Positions 10,648 to 32,659 of a stretch of 34,336 nt of DNA are shown here, piece after piece (within the stretch, counting starts at the first letter, position 1; every line of letters starts with the position of its first letter). Location of the stretch: the NCBI GenBank assembly GCA_026986115.1, contig JALSPG010000091.1:1-34336 (forward strand), written 5' to 3'. The notes under the pieces are model-generated. The model had not been told where the DNA came from. It did no database searches and was given only the letters and a program-made list of their open reading frames with translations. Origin of the DNA: Thermodesulfobacteriales bacterium. Its GTDB lineage: Bacteria; Desulfobacterota; Thermodesulfobacteria; Thermodesulfobacteriales; Thermodesulfatatoraceae. Made by a program: the position numbers and the translations under genes.

Positions 10648-10967
10648 TGCCACTTTTTGTGCCATTTTTGGTGATAATTTTTCTCCATTTCCTCGTGATG
10701 TTGTGAAGAAGAATTTTCTGAATTGCCCTCTTCGTGTTCTTTTTTCATCTGATTCCGATGCCTTTCCTTCTCTTCATGGTACTTTCGCATCTTCTCTGGC
10801 ATTGGCATGCCCTGGTGCCACTTCTGCCATTCCTCCGGACTCATCATTTGCCCTTTCTTAGGACAATTCGGACATGGACAAGTCTTTTCGGCCTTTTTGG
10901 CTTCCATAGCTAAAGAAACACCCGTCCACAGAAAAACCGCCAACAATACTCCCCAAAACTTTTGCAT
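10644..10967 (-). CDS. Exported His/Met/Cys-rich small protein, putative metal (copper) binding
   Basis: Signal peptide MQKFWGVLLAVFLWTGVSLAM; CPCPNCPKKGQMMSPEEWQKWHQGMPMPEKMRK; C-terminal HHEEMEKNYHQKWHKKWH. Directly downstream of copA. Confidence 0.72.
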   Translation of the reverse strand: MQKFWGVLLAVFLWTGVSLAMEAKKAEKTCPCPNCPKKGQMMSPEEWQKWHQGMPMPEKMRKYHEEKERHRNQMKKEHEEGNSENSSSQHHEEMEKNYHQKWHKKWH

Positions 10968-11066
10968 CTTCAACCTCCTCCAGATTCTAAATTTTTGGAT
11001 TTTCAATTCCTACCAAAACAATATATTTGGATTCTAAAGCAATTTTAAAATTATATCAAGTAAAAA

Positions 11067-25294: not shown

Positions 25295-25666
25295 CTACTG
25301 TAGAGCGCCTTCTCCAGGAATAATGTCTATTTCTTTTATCTTCTCATCCTTACTCCACAAAACCCATACATTTCGAATATTCTTATTTTTAATATATGAA
25401 CAATTGAGCTTTCTTTTCTCAACCAAATCTCCTTTAAAACTTACTTCGTATAGAGGAGCTCTTAAACATTCTATTTTAAGTTTGCGAATAGAACCATTAT
25501 TTTGTATTTCAAGGATAATAAATTTACCATGAATCTTGATATTTGCGGAATTCTTTTTAAATAGGGTTCTCACTGAAGATAAATAATTTTGGGCCTGACA
25601 ATTACCAACTAAGAAAAAAAATAACAGGGAAAACGATAACAAAAAAGACAATATTTTCATTGCCAC
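25295..25666 (-). CDS. Small exported hypothetical protein, last gene of the pilus cluster
   Basis: Signal peptide MKILSFLLSFSLLFFFLVGNCQAQ then about 100 aa; 17 bp after the pilY1 stop, same strand. Confidence 0.7.
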   Translation of the reverse strand: MAMKILSFLLSFSLLFFFLVGNCQAQNYLSSVRTLFKKNSANIKIHGKFIILEIQNNGSIRKLKIECLRAPLYEVSFKGDLVEKRKLNCSYIKNKNIRNVWVLWSKDEKIKEIDIIPGEGALQ

Positions 25667-25683: not shown

Positions 25684-28600
25684 TCAATGGATCTCAATAT
25701 CGACATCTGTCCAACTTCCTTTCTGAAACCAAAAATCTTTCGTTTCCACATAAAAACTTTTAATAGCTTCCGTAGTAGTGACCCTTGCAATATTTTTATT
25801 AATAAAAGTAACAGGAGAAACAGGAACACCCTTACCGACATATAATCCAATAGGAGCTTTTCCAGCCACTAGGTCATTTTCATCTACTTTACTATCTCCA
25901 TTTATATCTAGGCGAGGAGAGCCAAGACAGCCTTTTTGATAATCAAGAGCATAAAGCCAAGTATCTCCTGTACCAGAACATTCATCACCAGAGGGAAGAA
26001 AAGTGAGGAAAAAGACAGTCCCACCGAAAACGGTTGGAGGAGTAACAACTCTTTCACCAGGACGTAAGGTAACTTTCCAACCATTTCCATTTGTAGAACA
26101 GGAAGAAGGTATTATATATTCTCCGCTATAAGATATTTCGATATTATCTAAAGTAGGGGCTGTACAAGAATTAAGGTTATCTAGAAATCCTATTAAATAT
26201 TGAGAGCTTGTATCAGTGATATCGTTAATATCCCAATATTTCCCGGTTCCAAGATAAACCCAGGTCTTGCTACTATCTGGCAAGAAAGATACAGCGACCC
26301 TAGCAGAAACAGGATGCTGGAGACCCAGACTCAAAATCCGACAGGGGCTAGAAAGTTCGCATCCGGAAAAACGCCAGAGATTGCCCTGTAAATCTCCTAC
26401 ATAAATATAATCAAGCCCTTCAGTATTATCATTGTAAACCGGTGTGGCCGAAGAAGCCATGTTAGGCGTATCTTCTCCCAGAGAAACTTTGGCAAGCTTG
26501 CTTCCGGAATTAAGATCTAAGGCATAAAAATAGGCCTTTTTATTCGGCCAATCAGCATCGTTTACCGCATATCCTGAAGGCAAAAAGGCTACCCATTTAC
26601 CATCTTCACACTTGGCAAGAGTAGCTTCATTCCAAGTCTCACCTAAGTCAGGATCAGTAAATTCCCACTTAAAAGAAACTCCCTCAGGAGCATTAGTGAT
26701 ATCCAGGGCGATAAAATAGGGCCCTCCACGGCCAAGCCCTACTACCAGAATATCTCTGCCATTTACTTCCTGAATAGCTGGTGTCCCGTCGAAGAAAAAC
26801 TGGTGACAATAGCCAACGGTAAAGTAGCTGGCCTCAATATACCTTTCGAGCATTATATCCGGAATATAGGCAAACTTTTCTTCTCCGGTCTCAACATCAA
26901 AAGCATGTAACATACCATCGTTAGCCGCTATCCATACCAAATTCTTCCAGACTTTTGGCTGACTATTGATGATATCTCCCAGAGGCTTAGATCTACTACG
27001 AAACTCCTCATCAGGTGCTCCGCAACCCCTCTCCCCTCTGATAAAAGCTACTTGTTCTGCACTAAGAGGAGAAACTGTACCAGAAAAATTTTGCATTTCA
27101 GGGCCATACTTTATATTTCTAACTGAATTACAAGAAAGCTCCTCTGTAGAAGACCAACCTTCTTCCATAGACCACCAAAAACTATCTTCTATCTCTCCTT
27201 TAAGGATAGAAATAATGGTATCTATTTTGGCACTGGAATAATTTTTGACAGCCTCTTCGCCCATTTTAGCTTTTACTTGAGAAAGGTCACTCAAAAATTC
27301 CTCTAATTTTTCCCAGTCGATCGGTTCCGGCGTATCTAAATGGCCATCTCCGTCAATATCTTCTTTAACATCCAGATGTCCATCATTATCTACATCTTCT
27401 CCTTCATCAAGAACACCATTTCCATTTTTATCTTCAATTACTGTATCTAGTTTTCCATCACCATCTAGATCTTCGTTAACTAAATCCAGATGTCCATCTT
27501 CATCTAGATCTTTATAATAATTCCACCGTGCCAAACTTCTAACATCAGCCGGAGTATGACAATTAGCACAGTTAAAAGCAAAATGGCCGGATCTTATCTC
27601 TCCCGTCCAGTCGGTAACATCAAATTTAGTCCAGAGAACCATATTTCCTACCTCTGTTTGTCTGGCAGCCCCGGTTCCAGTGCTAAAGACAGTTTGTTTT
27701 ATTTCATAGATTATTGAACGAAGGGTCTCCGCAAGTTCCTGAGGGTTTCTCGCTATAAAGGGATCAGGAACACCATCTCCATCCTGGTCGCGATGGAGGG
27801 CATAGGTGTTTTCGCCATCTGCTTCTTGATTTGCCACCTGAGCCATGGCACGCAATTGGGCATCCTGATCCTCAGGAAGATTAAATCCCACTGCCACTAC
27901 TGTAACACCAGAATTAACCAAATCTCTAGTCCTTGTCCTAACATTTGAAACAGAGGAGTCAATATTACCTATACCATCTGTCAGAAAAATGGCGAATTTT
28001 TTGGCACACTCTCCAGGAGAATAAATCTGACCGTCTTCATCCGTAAAGTTTCCGGAAAAATATTCTCTAGCTGCAATAATAGACGGAGAAAAAGGAGTTC
28101 CACCTCCAACATTAACACGATAACAAGTATAATCATTATTCTCACAGAAAAATGGTTCATGAGCTACATTATCAAGAATCGATATCAGATTATTTACATG
28201 TTCGGCACTATAAAGTTTTATACCTTCATAAATACGGGTATAATATTTCGAATAAGGGAAATAAGCCTTAAAAAAACCAAGCCCTATAGATAACGAAGCA
28301 TCTTGAACGAGATCTTTTATAACACTTGAAACCACTTCTATTCTCATAGTATTTAGATAATTACCTAAAGCAACAGTATCATCTTCATAAATATAGGGAC
28401 AATTATAAAAAGCATAATACTCTTCAGCATAAGGTGGACCATTATTATAAAAATGATAGGACCAATCTGCTATACCATAAGTCGAAAGGATCTCATCAAT
28501 ATAGACATTATCAAGAGAATCTATAGAAGACAAATAATCATAACACTCGTCAGTTAAAAATTCATCAACAAGGTGTAATATAGAATCAGAACATGGATAT

Positions 28601-28920
28601 ACTTCAAAATAGCCATCATAATAAACTCTATTAAAAACATAATTTTTAAAACCTTGGTCGGTATAAAAACCAGCATAATTTTCGCTAGCATTATAAACTG
28701 GTGACCAATCTGGTCTCAGACCATAAGCCATAGAACCCGAAAGGTCAACAATAAAAAGGATATTAGGAGCAACATATCTTCCTAAATAAAGAGGAACCTC
28801 TCCACAAACATCTAGCTCATCCTCTGCTTTTAAAAAGGACACCAAAAAGAAAAAAATTAAAAGTGCTATCAGAGAGAAAAAATATAAATATCTTTTTATC
28901 CTAAAAATTCCAAAGAACAT
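25684..28920 (-). CDS. pilY1: PilY1-like type IV pilus assembly/tip protein with vWA domain and C-terminal PilC/PilY1 beta-propeller
   Basis: vWA MIDAS NILFIVDLSGSMAYG; propeller blocks VWIAANDGMLHAFDVETGEEKFAYIPDIML, DYIYVGDLQGNLWRFSG; adjacent minor pilin genes. Start placed at MFFGIFRIKRYL with SD ggaggg. Confidence 0.9.
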   Translation of the reverse strand: MFFGIFRIKRYLYFFSLIALLIFFFLVSFLKAEDELDVCGEVPLYLGRYVAPNILFIVDLSGSMAYGLRPDWSPVYNASENYAGFYTDQGFKNYVFNRVYYDGYFEVYPCSDSILHLVDEFLTDECYDYLSSIDSLDNVYIDEILSTYGIADWSYHFYNNGPPYAEEYYAFYNCPYIYEDDTVALGNYLNTMRIEVVSSVIKDLVQDASLSIGLGFFKAYFPYSKYYTRIYEGIKLYSAEHVNNLISILDNVAHEPFFCENNDYTCYRVNVGGGTPFSPSIIAAREYFSGNFTDEDGQIYSPGECAKKFAIFLTDGIGNIDSSVSNVRTRTRDLVNSGVTVVAVGFNLPEDQDAQLRAMAQVANQEADGENTYALHRDQDGDGVPDPFIARNPQELAETLRSIIYEIKQTVFSTGTGAARQTEVGNMVLWTKFDVTDWTGEIRSGHFAFNCANCHTPADVRSLARWNYYKDLDEDGHLDLVNEDLDGDGKLDTVIEDKNGNGVLDEGEDVDNDGHLDVKEDIDGDGHLDTPEPIDWEKLEEFLSDLSQVKAKMGEEAVKNYSSAKIDTIISILKGEIEDSFWWSMEEGWSSTEELSCNSVRNIKYGPEMQNFSGTVSPLSAEQVAFIRGERGCGAPDEEFRSRSKPLGDIINSQPKVWKNLVWIAANDGMLHAFDVETGEEKFAYIPDIMLERYIEASYFTVGYCHQFFFDGTPAIQEVNGRDILVVGLGRGGPYFIALDITNAPEGVSFKWEFTDPDLGETWNEATLAKCEDGKWVAFLPSGYAVNDADWPNKKAYFYALDLNSGSKLAKVSLGEDTPNMASSATPVYNDNTEGLDYIYVGDLQGNLWRFSGCELSSPCRILSLGLQHPVSARVAVSFLPDSSKTWVYLGTGKYWDINDITDTSSQYLIGFLDNLNSCTAPTLDNIEISYSGEYIIPSSCSTNGNGWKVTLRPGERVVTPPTVFGGTVFFLTFLPSGDECSGTGDTWLYALDYQKGCLGSPRLDINGDSKVDENDLVAGKAPIGLYVGKGVPVSPVTFINKNIARVTTTEAIKSFYVETKDFWFQKGSWTDVDIEIH

Positions 28921-28945
28921 ATAACCCTCCAAAAAGATCATTTTA

Positions 28946-29404
28946 TTAGAAAATTTGGCTACATAATTCTTCATCAAGCACCGATTTAACAGCTACGATC
29001 TTTACCAAGACCGCTTTGCCTTCTATATTAGCTTTAACCTCAAACCTTTGACAACATGTACTTCTAGTACAATTTCTAGTAAGACCTAAATTCTTGATAG
29101 AAACTTTCACCTGGACGTCATCATTACCCATAGGGATATTATAATCATAATCTACATAGGAACCAAGAGGAAAATAATTAATAGAAGATGGTATTATTTT
29201 CTCTATAACAGCCTTATAAGCTGCACTTTCTGTAGCATAGAATACTCGCGAAAATTTCTTTTGAGAATAAGTAGCCCAGAGATCAAATATAACCTCGCGA
29301 TAAGCCCACATAGACACAACAAGAATGATCAACAAAATTATCAGGGATAATGGCAAAATAAAACCGTTTTTCTTTCCTAAAAGGAATTCTCTATCTTTAA
29401 ACAT
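28946..29404 (-). CDS. PilX-like minor pilin / pilus assembly protein
   Basis: KKNGFILPLSLIILLIILVVSMWAYREVIFDLW; N-terminal hydrophobic helix lacking Glu5, immediately upstream of pilY1. Confidence 0.75.
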   Translation of the reverse strand: MFKDREFLLGKKNGFILPLSLIILLIILVVSMWAYREVIFDLWATYSQKKFSRVFYATESAAYKAVIEKIIPSSINYFPLGSYVDYDYNIPMGNDDVQVKVSIKNLGLTRNCTRSTCCQRFEVKANIEGKAVLVKIVAVKSVLDEELCSQIF

Positions 29405-29407
29405 AGA

Positions 29408-29848
29408 TCAACCTTCGCTAATTCTATAAAAAGAGATATCATAATTTGAACCCCAATTAGAAGATACATTAATTATAATAAGCTTGAAAGGATTCGAATT
29501 ATCAGAAATAATATTACAACTTACATAATATATATCGTTGTCAATAATCACCAGTCCATTCTCCTCGGAACAAGCAGCCTCTAACTCATCATAACTAACA
29601 GAAGCTAGTTTCTCTATAACACTTGTAGCCAGCTCTACTTTCCTGGAAAGGATTAAACCTTGACGAGAAGAAAAAAAACTCGCAATATTAAGTTTTAAAA
29701 CACCCACAACACTTACACTCAAAATCGATATAGCTATCAAGATTTCCAGCAGTGAAAAAGCACTGTTTTGGGAATTGGAAAATTTAAAATCTAAAAATTT
29801 CCTTAATTTTTTTAACTTTTTGTTTTTATTATTTGATGAATTTACCAT
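29408..29848 (-). CDS. PilV-like type IV minor pilin
   Basis: Prepilin N-terminus SAFSLLEILIAISILSVSVVGVLKLN; cluster position. Confidence 0.78.
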   Translation of the reverse strand: MVNSSNNKNKKLKKLRKFLDFKFSNSQNSAFSLLEILIAISILSVSVVGVLKLNIASFFSSRQGLILSRKVELATSVIEKLASVSYDELEAACSEENGLVIIDNDIYYVSCNIISDNSNPFKLIIINVSSNWGSNYDISFYRISEG

Positions 29849-29932
29849 AATAGTTACTCAAAAAAGATTCAATTTTTTGCAACTTTCCATAAAATCGTTT
29901 ATTCGCAAAAATTAATTATACAGAACAATTAT

Positions 29933-30538
29933 TTACTGAATCGTTCTATTTCTTATCCCAACTCTAAAATTAAAAGGTAAAGATAAAACAACATTAGTTT
30001 TAGATTTTTGGCTCATCTGAATGGTACCACTAATATCAATATAAACAATATTTTCAACTTGATTAGTAGGCAAATTTTCTTTATCAAAGAAAGAAAAACC
30101 AAAAGACGTAAGATCTATGCCAAGATCTCCAGAAGAAAGTCCACCGAGAAAAGATTCACATGAAGAATTATAACTCGATTTTCGACAAATATTAGAACCA
30201 TCATAATGATATGTTATCTGTTCTTCAGGCCCATCACAACAACCATCGCCATCAAGATCTCTAGAAAATGAAAATTCTGTCTCGGTAGCGGTAATTATAT
30301 CATCGCAATTTATCGCACAGGAGTCATCTTTACCATTAGGAAAAGAGCCGGCAAGCCTTATATCTCGGCACATAATTTCCATAAAAGCACGCATTTCTTC
30401 CTGAAGAAGAGAAGTCAATTGTAATTGGTCAGAAGTTGTCGCCGAGCTCTTTAAAATAAAAAAGAAAGCTCCCCCAAGAAAACTTATAATAGCTATAGCA
30501 ACTAATAACTCTACCAGAGAAACACCTCTAACATTCAT
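29933..30538 (-). CDS. PilW-like type IV minor pilin
   Basis: MNVRGVSLVELLVAIAIISFLGGAFFFILKSS class III signal; RDIRLAG and RDLDGDGCCDGPEEQITYH typical of PilW-like proteins. Confidence 0.82.
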   Translation of the reverse strand: MNVRGVSLVELLVAIAIISFLGGAFFFILKSSATTSDQLQLTSLLQEEMRAFMEIMCRDIRLAGSFPNGKDDSCAINCDDIITATETEFSFSRDLDGDGCCDGPEEQITYHYDGSNICRKSSYNSSCESFLGGLSSGDLGIDLTSFGFSFFDKENLPTNQVENIVYIDISGTIQMSQKSKTNVVLSLPFNFRVGIRNRTIQ

Positions 30539-31016
30539 TGATACGAACCCGTCCTGTCCGATTATAAATTACCGCTAAACATTTAGCCGTCTTACTATGG
30601 ATAAGAGTTATAGTATCGGCACCAAAACCACCACTCGGATTTTTAGGAAGTCCCCTTTCAAAATAAACACGGTTGTTTAAAGTAATACTTATGCTATTAT
30701 CAATAGAAAAAGATTGTATTATTCTTTCAGTAGCATCACATAAGCCATTCATATCTCGATCATAGCAAAGTTTAATTTCCGAGAGATTAGAAAAATCCAA
30801 AGCCACGGGACCCTCTTTAAGAGATATAGTTTTGGCAGCCAGCAAAGCGGAAGCCACAGTTCTTGCAGCTCCTTTAAGATCAAGATTGTATTTCACTTTC
30901 ATCAATCTCGGAATGGAAATCAGAACAAGAAAAGATATAATCCCTATTATTACTATCAACTCTACCAATGAAATACCTATTATCTTTTTAAAATGATCTT
31001 TAATTAAAAAAGTCAT
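30528..31016 (-). CDS. FimT/GspH-like minor pilin
   Basis: IIGISLVELIVIIGIISFLVLISIPRLMKVKYNLDLKGAARTVASALLAAKTISLKEG; C-terminal NRTGRVRI typical of GspH/FimT. Confidence 0.82.
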   Translation of the reverse strand: MTFLIKDHFKKIIGISLVELIVIIGIISFLVLISIPRLMKVKYNLDLKGAARTVASALLAAKTISLKEGPVALDFSNLSEIKLCYDRDMNGLCDATERIIQSFSIDNSISITLNNRVYFERGLPKNPSGGFGADTITLIHSKTAKCLAVIYNRTGRVRINEC

Positions 31017-31033
31017 ATCTCCATTTAATAAAC

Positions 31034-31059
31034 TCAGGAGGGGATTGCTCCCCCCCTGA
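31034..31059. terminator. Hairpin between pilA and the minor pilin genes (attenuator or 3'-end stabiliser candidate)
   Basis: tcaggagggg-attgct-ccccccctga: 10-bp GC-rich stem, one mismatch, located between the pilA stop (31070) and the FimT start (31016). Confidence 0.5.
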
Positions 31060-31069
31060 AATTTAAGTA

Positions 31070-31441
31070 CTAACTAGCTTCACAACTGACAACATTATTA
31101 TCAATATTACAGGATACACTAATGCCCTTTACTGTAATAGAATCACAACCAGAAATAGAACCATCATTTTCATTTAAATTTAGATTACAGGTCTGATCAC
31201 CAACATTACAAGTCCATGAAGTTGTACCGTCATCAGCATAGGCGGCTACCAGTTCACTCATACAGGAAGAGATGGCTCCTTCGGCAGCAGCAGCAGCAGA
31301 CTTTTTCTTGTATTTGGCATACTGCGGTATGGCAACTGCCGCCAAAATGCCGATAATGGCCACGACTATCAAAAGTTCAACCAGTGTAAAACCTTTACGT
31401 CGATTCCTCTTTTTCGATTCTTTCTTACCTTTATACATCAT
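31070..31441 (-). CDS. pilA: Major type IVa pilin (PilA-like)
   Basis: [42 protein letters not shown]; mature protein about 106 aa. Confidence 0.9.
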
Positions 31442-31481
31442 TTAACCTCCTATTAGTTTTTTATCTGCTTGATTTTATTTC

Positions 31482-31497
31482 CGAGGTGGCCACCTCG
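31482..31497. repeat. 16-nt perfect palindrome in the pilA 5'UTR
   Basis: cgaggtggccacctcg. Confidence 0.8.
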
Positions 31498-31517
31498 TTT
31501 TCTATCTATAGTTTATT

Positions 31518-31532
31518 GCAACCTTCATGCCA
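31518..31532 (-). promoter_or_regulatory. Sigma-54-type (-24/-12) promoter upstream of pilA
   Basis: Minus strand TGGCAT-GAAGG-TTGC, matching TGGCAC-N5-TTGC at 5 of 6 plus 4 of 4 positions; predicted TSS about 65 nt before the pilA ATG. Confidence 0.75.
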
Positions 31533-31597
31533 GAGCTCGAAAACCTTTTCTCCGCTAGAAATGCTATCGGTAAAGGAGGACGAAGAGTTAAAAAAGG

Positions 31598-31649
31598 GCT
31601 TTTGGATTGCCAAATTTTGTCAATGATTGACAAAATTTGGCTTAAAAGC
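31598..31649 (-). terminator. Extended Rho-independent-terminator-like hairpin upstream of pilA
   Basis: Perfect 15-bp stem GCCAAATTTTGTCAA-TGA-TTGACAAAATTTGGC (31609-31641) plus outer GCTTTT/AAAAGC; on the minus strand followed by ccctttttt. Confidence 0.65.
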
Positions 31650-31982
31650 GAAAGAAGGTCTTTTTGTTGTTCTTAAGCTCTACTAAGCAGAACAAAAGAG
31701 AGCTCCTATTTCATAATAAAAGAGACCTTTACAAAAGATCTTTTAGGACCTGTTTTTTTGTTCAAAAAAAGCGAATTCTCCTCTTTAAACTTTGTACTTC
31801 TTATCTTGGAAGTAAGTTTGGATTGTTTTTAAGTATGTAATTTAAGTATGTTAATAATGAAGGCCTTTATTCTATAGGCGATCGAACTCTAACTGAACAA
31901 AAAAGCCTCCCACAGCTTTATCTCTTCGACAACCCCAGACAGTTAAGTTCTGAAGCCATAAATCCTGGTTTTTTAAAAAACA

Positions 31983-32659
31983 TTAGATATAAGGAAAGAT
32001 ATAAGGAAGGGGATCTTTGATCCCGGCTTCTCGAAAACCTTTAAGGCGCAAGAGACATGATTCACAACGTCCACAAGCTATATCTTCGCGCTGATAACAA
32101 GACCAAGTAAGGTGAAAGGGAGCTCCGAGTTTAGCTCCTAGTTTTACAATTTCGGCTTTGGTGAGATTAATAAGAGGGGTTTCAATACGAAGATCTGTTT
32201 CAGGACGTGTTCCTTCGGCGATTACCCGGTTGAAAGCCTCAAAGAAAGAGGCTCGACAATCAGGGTAACCAGAAAAATCTACCTGACTGGCCCCGATAAA
32301 TATCTTTTTAGCCCCTAGTACTTCCCCCCAGGAGACAGCGATGGCCAGGAAATGGGCATTTCGAAAAGGTACGTAAGTGATTGGTATTTGATCAGTTGAG
32401 ATCTCCCCTTCTGGCACCTTGATTTTTTCGTCTGTAAGGGCTGAACCACCAATCTGTTTAAGAGCCGGGACGTCTGTTACGAGTCGATACTTTACCTGGT
32501 AAAAATTGGCTATTTCGTGAAAGGCCTTGAGCTCCCGGTTTTGGGTACGTTGTCCATAATTTACATGCAAGAAGGCAAGCTCAAACTCTTGGGCGGCTAC
32601 AGCTGCGGCTACACAAGAATCAAGCCCACCGCTGACCAGACAGATAGCAAGGGGTTTCA

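Follow-up and report, generated by a model that had tools for sequence, protein, structure and literature searches.

The PilY1/PilC proteins (PF05567; 3hx6) act at the tip of type IVa pili and in their priming, and the protein described here shares with them a beta-propeller, an upstream von Willebrand factor A-type (VWA) region, an export signal, a C-terminal EF-hand-like loop and the placement of its gene after minor pilin genes. It differs from them by a cytochrome-like insert that carries a CxxCH motif together with EF-hand-type loops. In Myxococcus, a monoheme cytochrome, TfcP, is encoded in the pilY1.1 operon and stimulates calcium binding by PilY1.1. The heme of TfcP is thought to be structural and its distal ligand is a Cys, while TfcP itself is a separate soluble periplasmic protein which is not in purified pili and has been reported only in Myxococcales (PMC8833165). 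No earlier description of a heme-bearing PilY1 was present in the literature searched, in which only TfcP was relevant.

The locus shares with TfcP of Myxococcus xanthus a c-type motif for a single heme in association with a PilY1/minor pilin operon, as well as a link with calcium. However, the module studied here is located inside PilY1, its candidate distal ligand is a Met and it has calcium loops of its own. The features of the TfcP type (stand-alone protein, distal Cys, charged C-terminal extension) were not found, no distal Cys being invariant, and the module is not a TfcP. With class I cytochromes c (PF13442/PF00034) it shares the predicted order of CxxCH, helix, helix, Met and C-terminal helix, but it appears to lack the N-terminal helix, has three to seven inserted calcium loops and falls below the family thresholds. 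With EF-hand loops and thrombospondin type 3 repeats it has in common the tandem DxDxDGxxDxxE loops of 12-13 residues, which differ here in being embedded in a CxxCH module and in being present in 3, 5 or 7 copies.

The window (the whole stretch of DNA analysed, 34,336 nucleotides) is an entire contig from a 1.83 Mb draft genome of a Thermodesulfobacteriales bacterium. The product of its pilY1 gene (Table 1) matched PF05567 above the curated cut-off of Pfam (E=3e-27, 96 bits against 28.1) and matched P. aeruginosa PilY1 (3hx6) in a phmmer comparison with E=1.9e-35. By these tests of sequence and by gene order the protein is identified as PilY1, and a location in the pilus tip or priming complex would be expected from its family; PilM is also encoded in the genome. 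The likelier start of the gene is the ATG at residue 20 (position 28920), and a hydrophobic export signal was recognised by eye at residues 20-51. The strands around DWTGE were found, by alignment and by-eye comparison, at the position of 'DW.GdL.ay.l' in ordinary PilY1s, and a loop similar to the C-terminal EF-hand/dockerin-like loop was present in all five proteins that carry the module.

Table 1. Features of the pilY1 locus, with positions in the window
Feature	Position	Strand	Basis or remark
Small secreted protein gene, directly downstream of pilY1	25295..25666	-	Same place in carriers, sequences weakly alike
pilY1 gene	25684..28977	-	1097 aa frame from TTG; PF05567, 3hx6 match, four orthologs elsewhere
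C-terminal EF-hand/dockerin-like loop, DINGDSKVDEND	25873..25908	-	Sequence
PilY1 beta-propeller core (PF05567)	26365..26949	-	Pfam
Inserted module (residues 470-605; 136 aa here, orthologs 111-160 aa)	27163..27570	-	W.G-to-[FY].RG spacing; lengths
C-terminal cytochrome-like helix, YSSAKIDTIISILKG	27196..27240	-	Conservation, profile alignment, AF2 model
Met572, proposed distal heme ligand	27262..27264	-	Invariant; paired with the axial Met in the profile alignment with class I cytochromes c
Five tandem EF-hand-type calcium loops of 12-13 residues (DxDxDGxLDxxE), residues 490-549	27331..27510	-	Sequence; copy numbers in carriers
Helix after CxxCH, TPADVRSLARWN	27520..27555	-	Conserved; helix in low/medium-confidence AF2 model
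CANCH, residues 470-474	27556..27570	-	Candidate site for heme c (through Cys470 and Cys473), with His474 as putative proximal ligand
Two strands around DWTGE, residues 441-469	27571..27657	-	Alignment and by-eye comparison; strands in low-confidence model
VWA region, residues 70-440	27658..28770	-	PF00092 E=6e-4, weak, below cut-off; sequence
MIDAS-like DLSGSM in VWA region	28729-28746	-	Sequence
PilX-like minor pilin gene	28946..29404	-	Position and hydrophobic N-terminus
PilV-like minor pilin gene	29408..29848	-	N_methyl PF07963
PilW-like minor pilin gene	29933..30538	-	N_methyl PF07963
FimT/FimU (GspH)-like minor pilin gene	30528..31016	-	PF12019 E=0.006, below cut-off
Pilin gene	31070..31441	-	N_methyl PF07963 E=1e-10

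Upstream of pilY1, a pilin gene is accompanied by four minor pilin-like genes (fimT/pilW/pilV/pilX-like), the latter in the same order in the carriers; no significant Pfam match was obtained for the pilX-like gene. The GC content of the pilin and minor pilin stretch (28001-32000 of the window) was 0.31-0.36, with 0.31 at 28-30 kb, compared to a value near 0.45 over most of the contig. On the other side of pilY1, a gene for a small secreted protein follows in 5/5 carriers (counterparts at L032:384-731 (-), L033:13668-14108, L034:1962-2312 and L036:13371-13793 (+)). The sequences of these small proteins are just 18-25% alike and the four tested gave no Pfam match. They may be dedicated partners of the module-bearing PilY1.

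A sequence-only reading of this DNA had placed a c-type heme motif, CANCH, inside PilY1, and the translated frame, which reads DWTGEIRSGHFAFNCANCHTPADVRSLARWNYYKD in this region, confirmed it exactly. The 1097 residues of the protein include 19 Cys and 14 His, and any CxxCH appeared in only 0.4% of composition shuffles. The sequence C-A-[ND]-C-H followed by S/T is kept in all five genes of the module-bearing type. Among 60 distinct PilY1-type frames, some of them partial because many PilY1 loci extend just ~1.5 kb to each side of the matched region, CxxCH was found in six, which are the five genes with one split in two, and in none of the other 54. As the motif is conserved in every member of one type and absent from the other frames, a chance origin was rejected. 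The proviso of the sequence-only reading, that CxxCH might be lost in orthologs, did not hold, since alignment of the homologs showed the motif to be invariant; a distal Met was invariant as well. Another frame with a CxxCH, at 10753-11034 (+), spans other frames and was given no weight.

In ordinary PilY1s, the strand pair 'W.GdL.ay.l' is succeeded by 'W.A...L....R.I.T', after which comes '[FY][LIV]RG'. The carriers have, in this beta region linking the VWA domain to the propeller, an insert of ~110-160 residues which opens with the CxxCH. The distance from W.G to [FY].RG is 177-214 residues in the five carriers compared to 70-145 residues in frames that have no CxxCH, the latter range covering only those in which both W.G and [FY].RG were located. 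The extra sequence, ~100 residues at one defined place, is absent from ordinary PilY1s, and these additional 100 or more residues could have room for a heme. The boundaries of the insert, its loop repeats, the distal Met and the comparison with TfcP are the most informative parts of the present analysis and were missing from the earlier reading.

Within the module the order is CxxCH, helix, EF-hand-type loops, helix, Met572 and C-terminal helix, and its consensus consists of CxxCH, 'tPadvRsLARWNyy', the DxDxDGxLDxxE loops and 'PIDw..L..FL.d...v...MG..Al..Ys..kI..II.ilkG'. Matches of the loop region to EF-hand and FG-GAP families in Pfam were sub-threshold. There are three loops in one carrier (G010), five in the window genome (G000), G005 and G008, and seven in G076, in which one of eight pattern matches overlapped another and was left out of the count. 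The distance from His474 to the Met varies because the copy number of the loops differs, being 73, 98 and 122 with 3, 5 and 7 loops, respectively, while the flanks stay put. Copy numbers were always odd, changing by pairs of loops (about 24-25 residues). Of the 57 columns in the distal part of the insert, only 13 are invariant, and these include no Met, His, Cys or Lys apart from Met572.

Judged from its sequence, the module is arranged like a class I cytochrome c whose middle is interrupted by calcium loops. When the five modules, with the loops removed, were compared by hhalign with 18 domains of class I cytochromes c from relatives, the unconstrained alignment brought the CxxCH, a helix and the C-terminal helix into register and set Met572 opposite the axial Met. 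Among column shuffles that kept the CxxCH, 2/200 reached the global score and 8/200 the local score. The CxxCH itself supplies most of the score, and the insert after the CxxCH, taken alone, was not significantly cytochrome-like (score reached by 21/300 shuffles). The profile alignment gives modest support to Met572 as the axial Met. A class I type CxxCH...YMP domain, with spacing resembling that of the module, was also seen in frames of ~440-900 aa from relatives (L096-L104, L107-L109).

With the loops removed, no significant cytochrome match was obtained for the module in Pfam or in PDB sequence searches; the best cytochrome family in Pfam was PF13442 (E=0.2, 12.4 bits against 27), and only after loop removal. 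As the Pfam threshold was failed, the module is named cytochrome c-like, not a confirmed class I cytochrome. The AF2 models, built on an alignment of three sequences, had a pLDDT of 41 for 260 residues and of 60 for the module of 158 residues, in which the helices predicted to flank the heme had block values of about 69-82. In the module model, which is weak, the helices are in cytochrome order, and in the longer model (pLDDT 41) a strand precedes the CxxCH in the place of the usual N-terminal helix of cytochromes. Foldseek searches of these weak models against the PDB returned no usable match and no cytochrome, an outcome taken neither for nor against a cytochrome fold.

A search for cytochrome c maturation genes, which the earlier reading had recommended, showed that a cytochrome c synthase, CcsA, is present in the window genome, with two CcsA-type proteins containing the WGSYWSWDPKETW motif (G000:C53:45026-45637 and G000:C34:3699-4319). 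The second of these immediately precedes hemA and could be a HemX-like protein. CcsA was found in all five carriers. ResB was found in the four carriers other than the window genome and not in the window draft; as those four carriers and three further congeners tested have ResB, its absence from the draft is probably an assembly gap. The DNA pattern coding for CxxCH occurs 218 times in the genome compared to 43 for the reversed pattern, which served as a control, and its dense clusters suggest multiheme cytochromes. Purified CcsBA requires both thiols and the His of CxxCH, and not helix 1 of the cytochrome (PMC8112865), therefore the apparent lack of the N-terminal helix would be no obstacle to attachment. 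We consider covalent attachment of heme at the CANCH of PilY1 to be probable, and ligation of the iron by His474 and Met572 to be rather likely, with somewhat less assurance.

The module-bearing PilY1 was found only in a few Thermodesulfobacteriota. A whole-protein search over 99 relatives gave four strong relatives, and two of the carriers were also recovered in a named collection, as MAGs labelled Thermodesulfobacteriaceae (L037/L039) and Thermodesulfobacteriales (L038). G005 is of the same genus as the window genome and has its pilY1 split over two contigs, G008 is of the same family, G010 is of the same order, and G076 is of the same phylum but of another family, being the sole carrier among 56 genomes of its class. 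Scanning genome contigs with the window PilY1 alone gave no match, so that the module alignment was needed; with it, a scan of 395 genomes of the phylum, in which G008 was not drawn, detected no further carrier.

In families f1 and f2, the genomes positive for PF05567 (G000, G005, G008 and G010) all carry the module, as do all PF05567 genes found in the GTDB family of the window, and the remaining f1 genomes tested had no PF05567 match at all. There was no PF05567 PilY1 match in G001-G004, G006 and G007, which are of the same genus, or in G009 of the same family, some of these genomes being near-complete. In f39, the family of G076, PF05567 was matched in two genomes (G265 and G458), neither of which gave a strong match to the module. 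Overall identity between pairs of the five carrier proteins is 46-58%, and the four others are 51-58% identical to the window PilY1 (G076 58%, G008 55%, G010 51%). The identity of G076, which exceeds that of the relatives from the same family and order, and the AT-rich pilin stretch are a hint of horizontal transfer.

The explanation which we favour, at about even chances, is that the inserted heme module is a structural, calcium-coupled element of PilY1 folding and stability. PilY1 would carry, in the beta region that separates the VWA domain from the propeller, a monoheme cytochrome c-like module in which a CcsBA-type synthase would attach heme to Cys470 and Cys473 in the periplasm, with the iron ligated by His474 and Met572 and the EF-hand-type loops spliced into the middle. 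The covalent heme would then be mainly a structural core that joins the two halves of the module around the calcium loops, and heme loading and calcium binding could together lock PilY1 into a fold competent for assembly and pilus priming. The module may, in this way, be an in-cis counterpart of the action of TfcP on PilY1.1 in Myxococcus. It is by this analogy, as the module would join heme and calcium in the way that TfcP and PilY1.1 do, that we infer a role in folding and stability in preference to electron transfer or sensing.

Another explanation is that there is no heme, and that a CxxC disulfide, or a metal site at the CxxCH, staples the base of the calcium-loop insert, making the module purely an element of adhesion or stability. 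PilY1 has other conserved cysteines which probably form disulfides, the cytochrome profile similarity beyond the CxxCH is modest, and loops of the TSP3/EF-hand type alone could explain the insert. However, His474 and Met572 are both invariant and a disulfide needs neither of them, and an exported CxxCH in a cell with a cytochrome c synthase is expected to be a substrate (PMC8112865). A heme-less module is rather unlikely. A zinc site at the CxxCH, which the earlier reading had allowed for, was rejected, as the insert has no further invariant Cys or His that could serve as a fourth ligand.

The suggestion of a heme-bearing PilY1 is strengthened by the CxxCH in 5/5 carriers, the discrete insert, the invariant distal Met and the synthase genes, and the redox- or gas-sensing function attached to it was not supported as such. 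In its boldest form, the tip adhesin would itself be a cytochrome c, in which a redox-active heme, coupled both mechanically and allosterically to the stacked calcium loops, would be carried on the tip of a retractable pilus, there to sense the surface that is touched or to exchange electrons with it; we regard this as doubtful.

We consider it quite improbable that extracellular electron transfer involves the pilus tip, with a redox-active heme there relaying electrons between the multiheme cytochromes of the cell and whatever the pilus touches, be it a mineral, an electrode or a partner cell. The strong excess and dense clustering of CxxCH-coding DNA would agree with such a role, and His/Met ligation would give a usable potential. 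Also in its favour, PilY1 of syntrophic sulfate reducers has been reported to be highly expressed (PMC10553843). Against electron transfer, a lone heme where a pilin filament ends would have no obvious wire behind it, and the pilus cluster contains no multiheme gene. TfcP, to our knowledge the only PilY1-linked cytochrome that has been tested, was considered an improbable participant in electron transport (PMC8833165). A heme that acts as a sensor of redox state, oxygen or sulfide/NO at the tip, altering the shape or calcium affinity of PilY1 and with it adhesion or retraction, would be plausibly placed to act as a switch, beside the calcium loops and with the VWA domain on one side and the propeller on the other. 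This reading is similarly improbable; no signalling partner was identified, and the invariant Met suggests a six-coordinate heme, leaving no free site for a gas.

TfcP, the only PilY1-linked cytochrome described in the literature searched, is a separate helper outside the pilus. If PilY1 does possess a heme and calcium module of its own, a cofactor would be placed in the pilus tip complex itself, and the link of heme and calcium to PilY1 would exist in a second form. This would provide a compact system, within a single polypeptide, for heme-supported, calcium-dependent folding, and the same system could be used to test for redox-active pilus tips in thermophilic sulfur bacteria.
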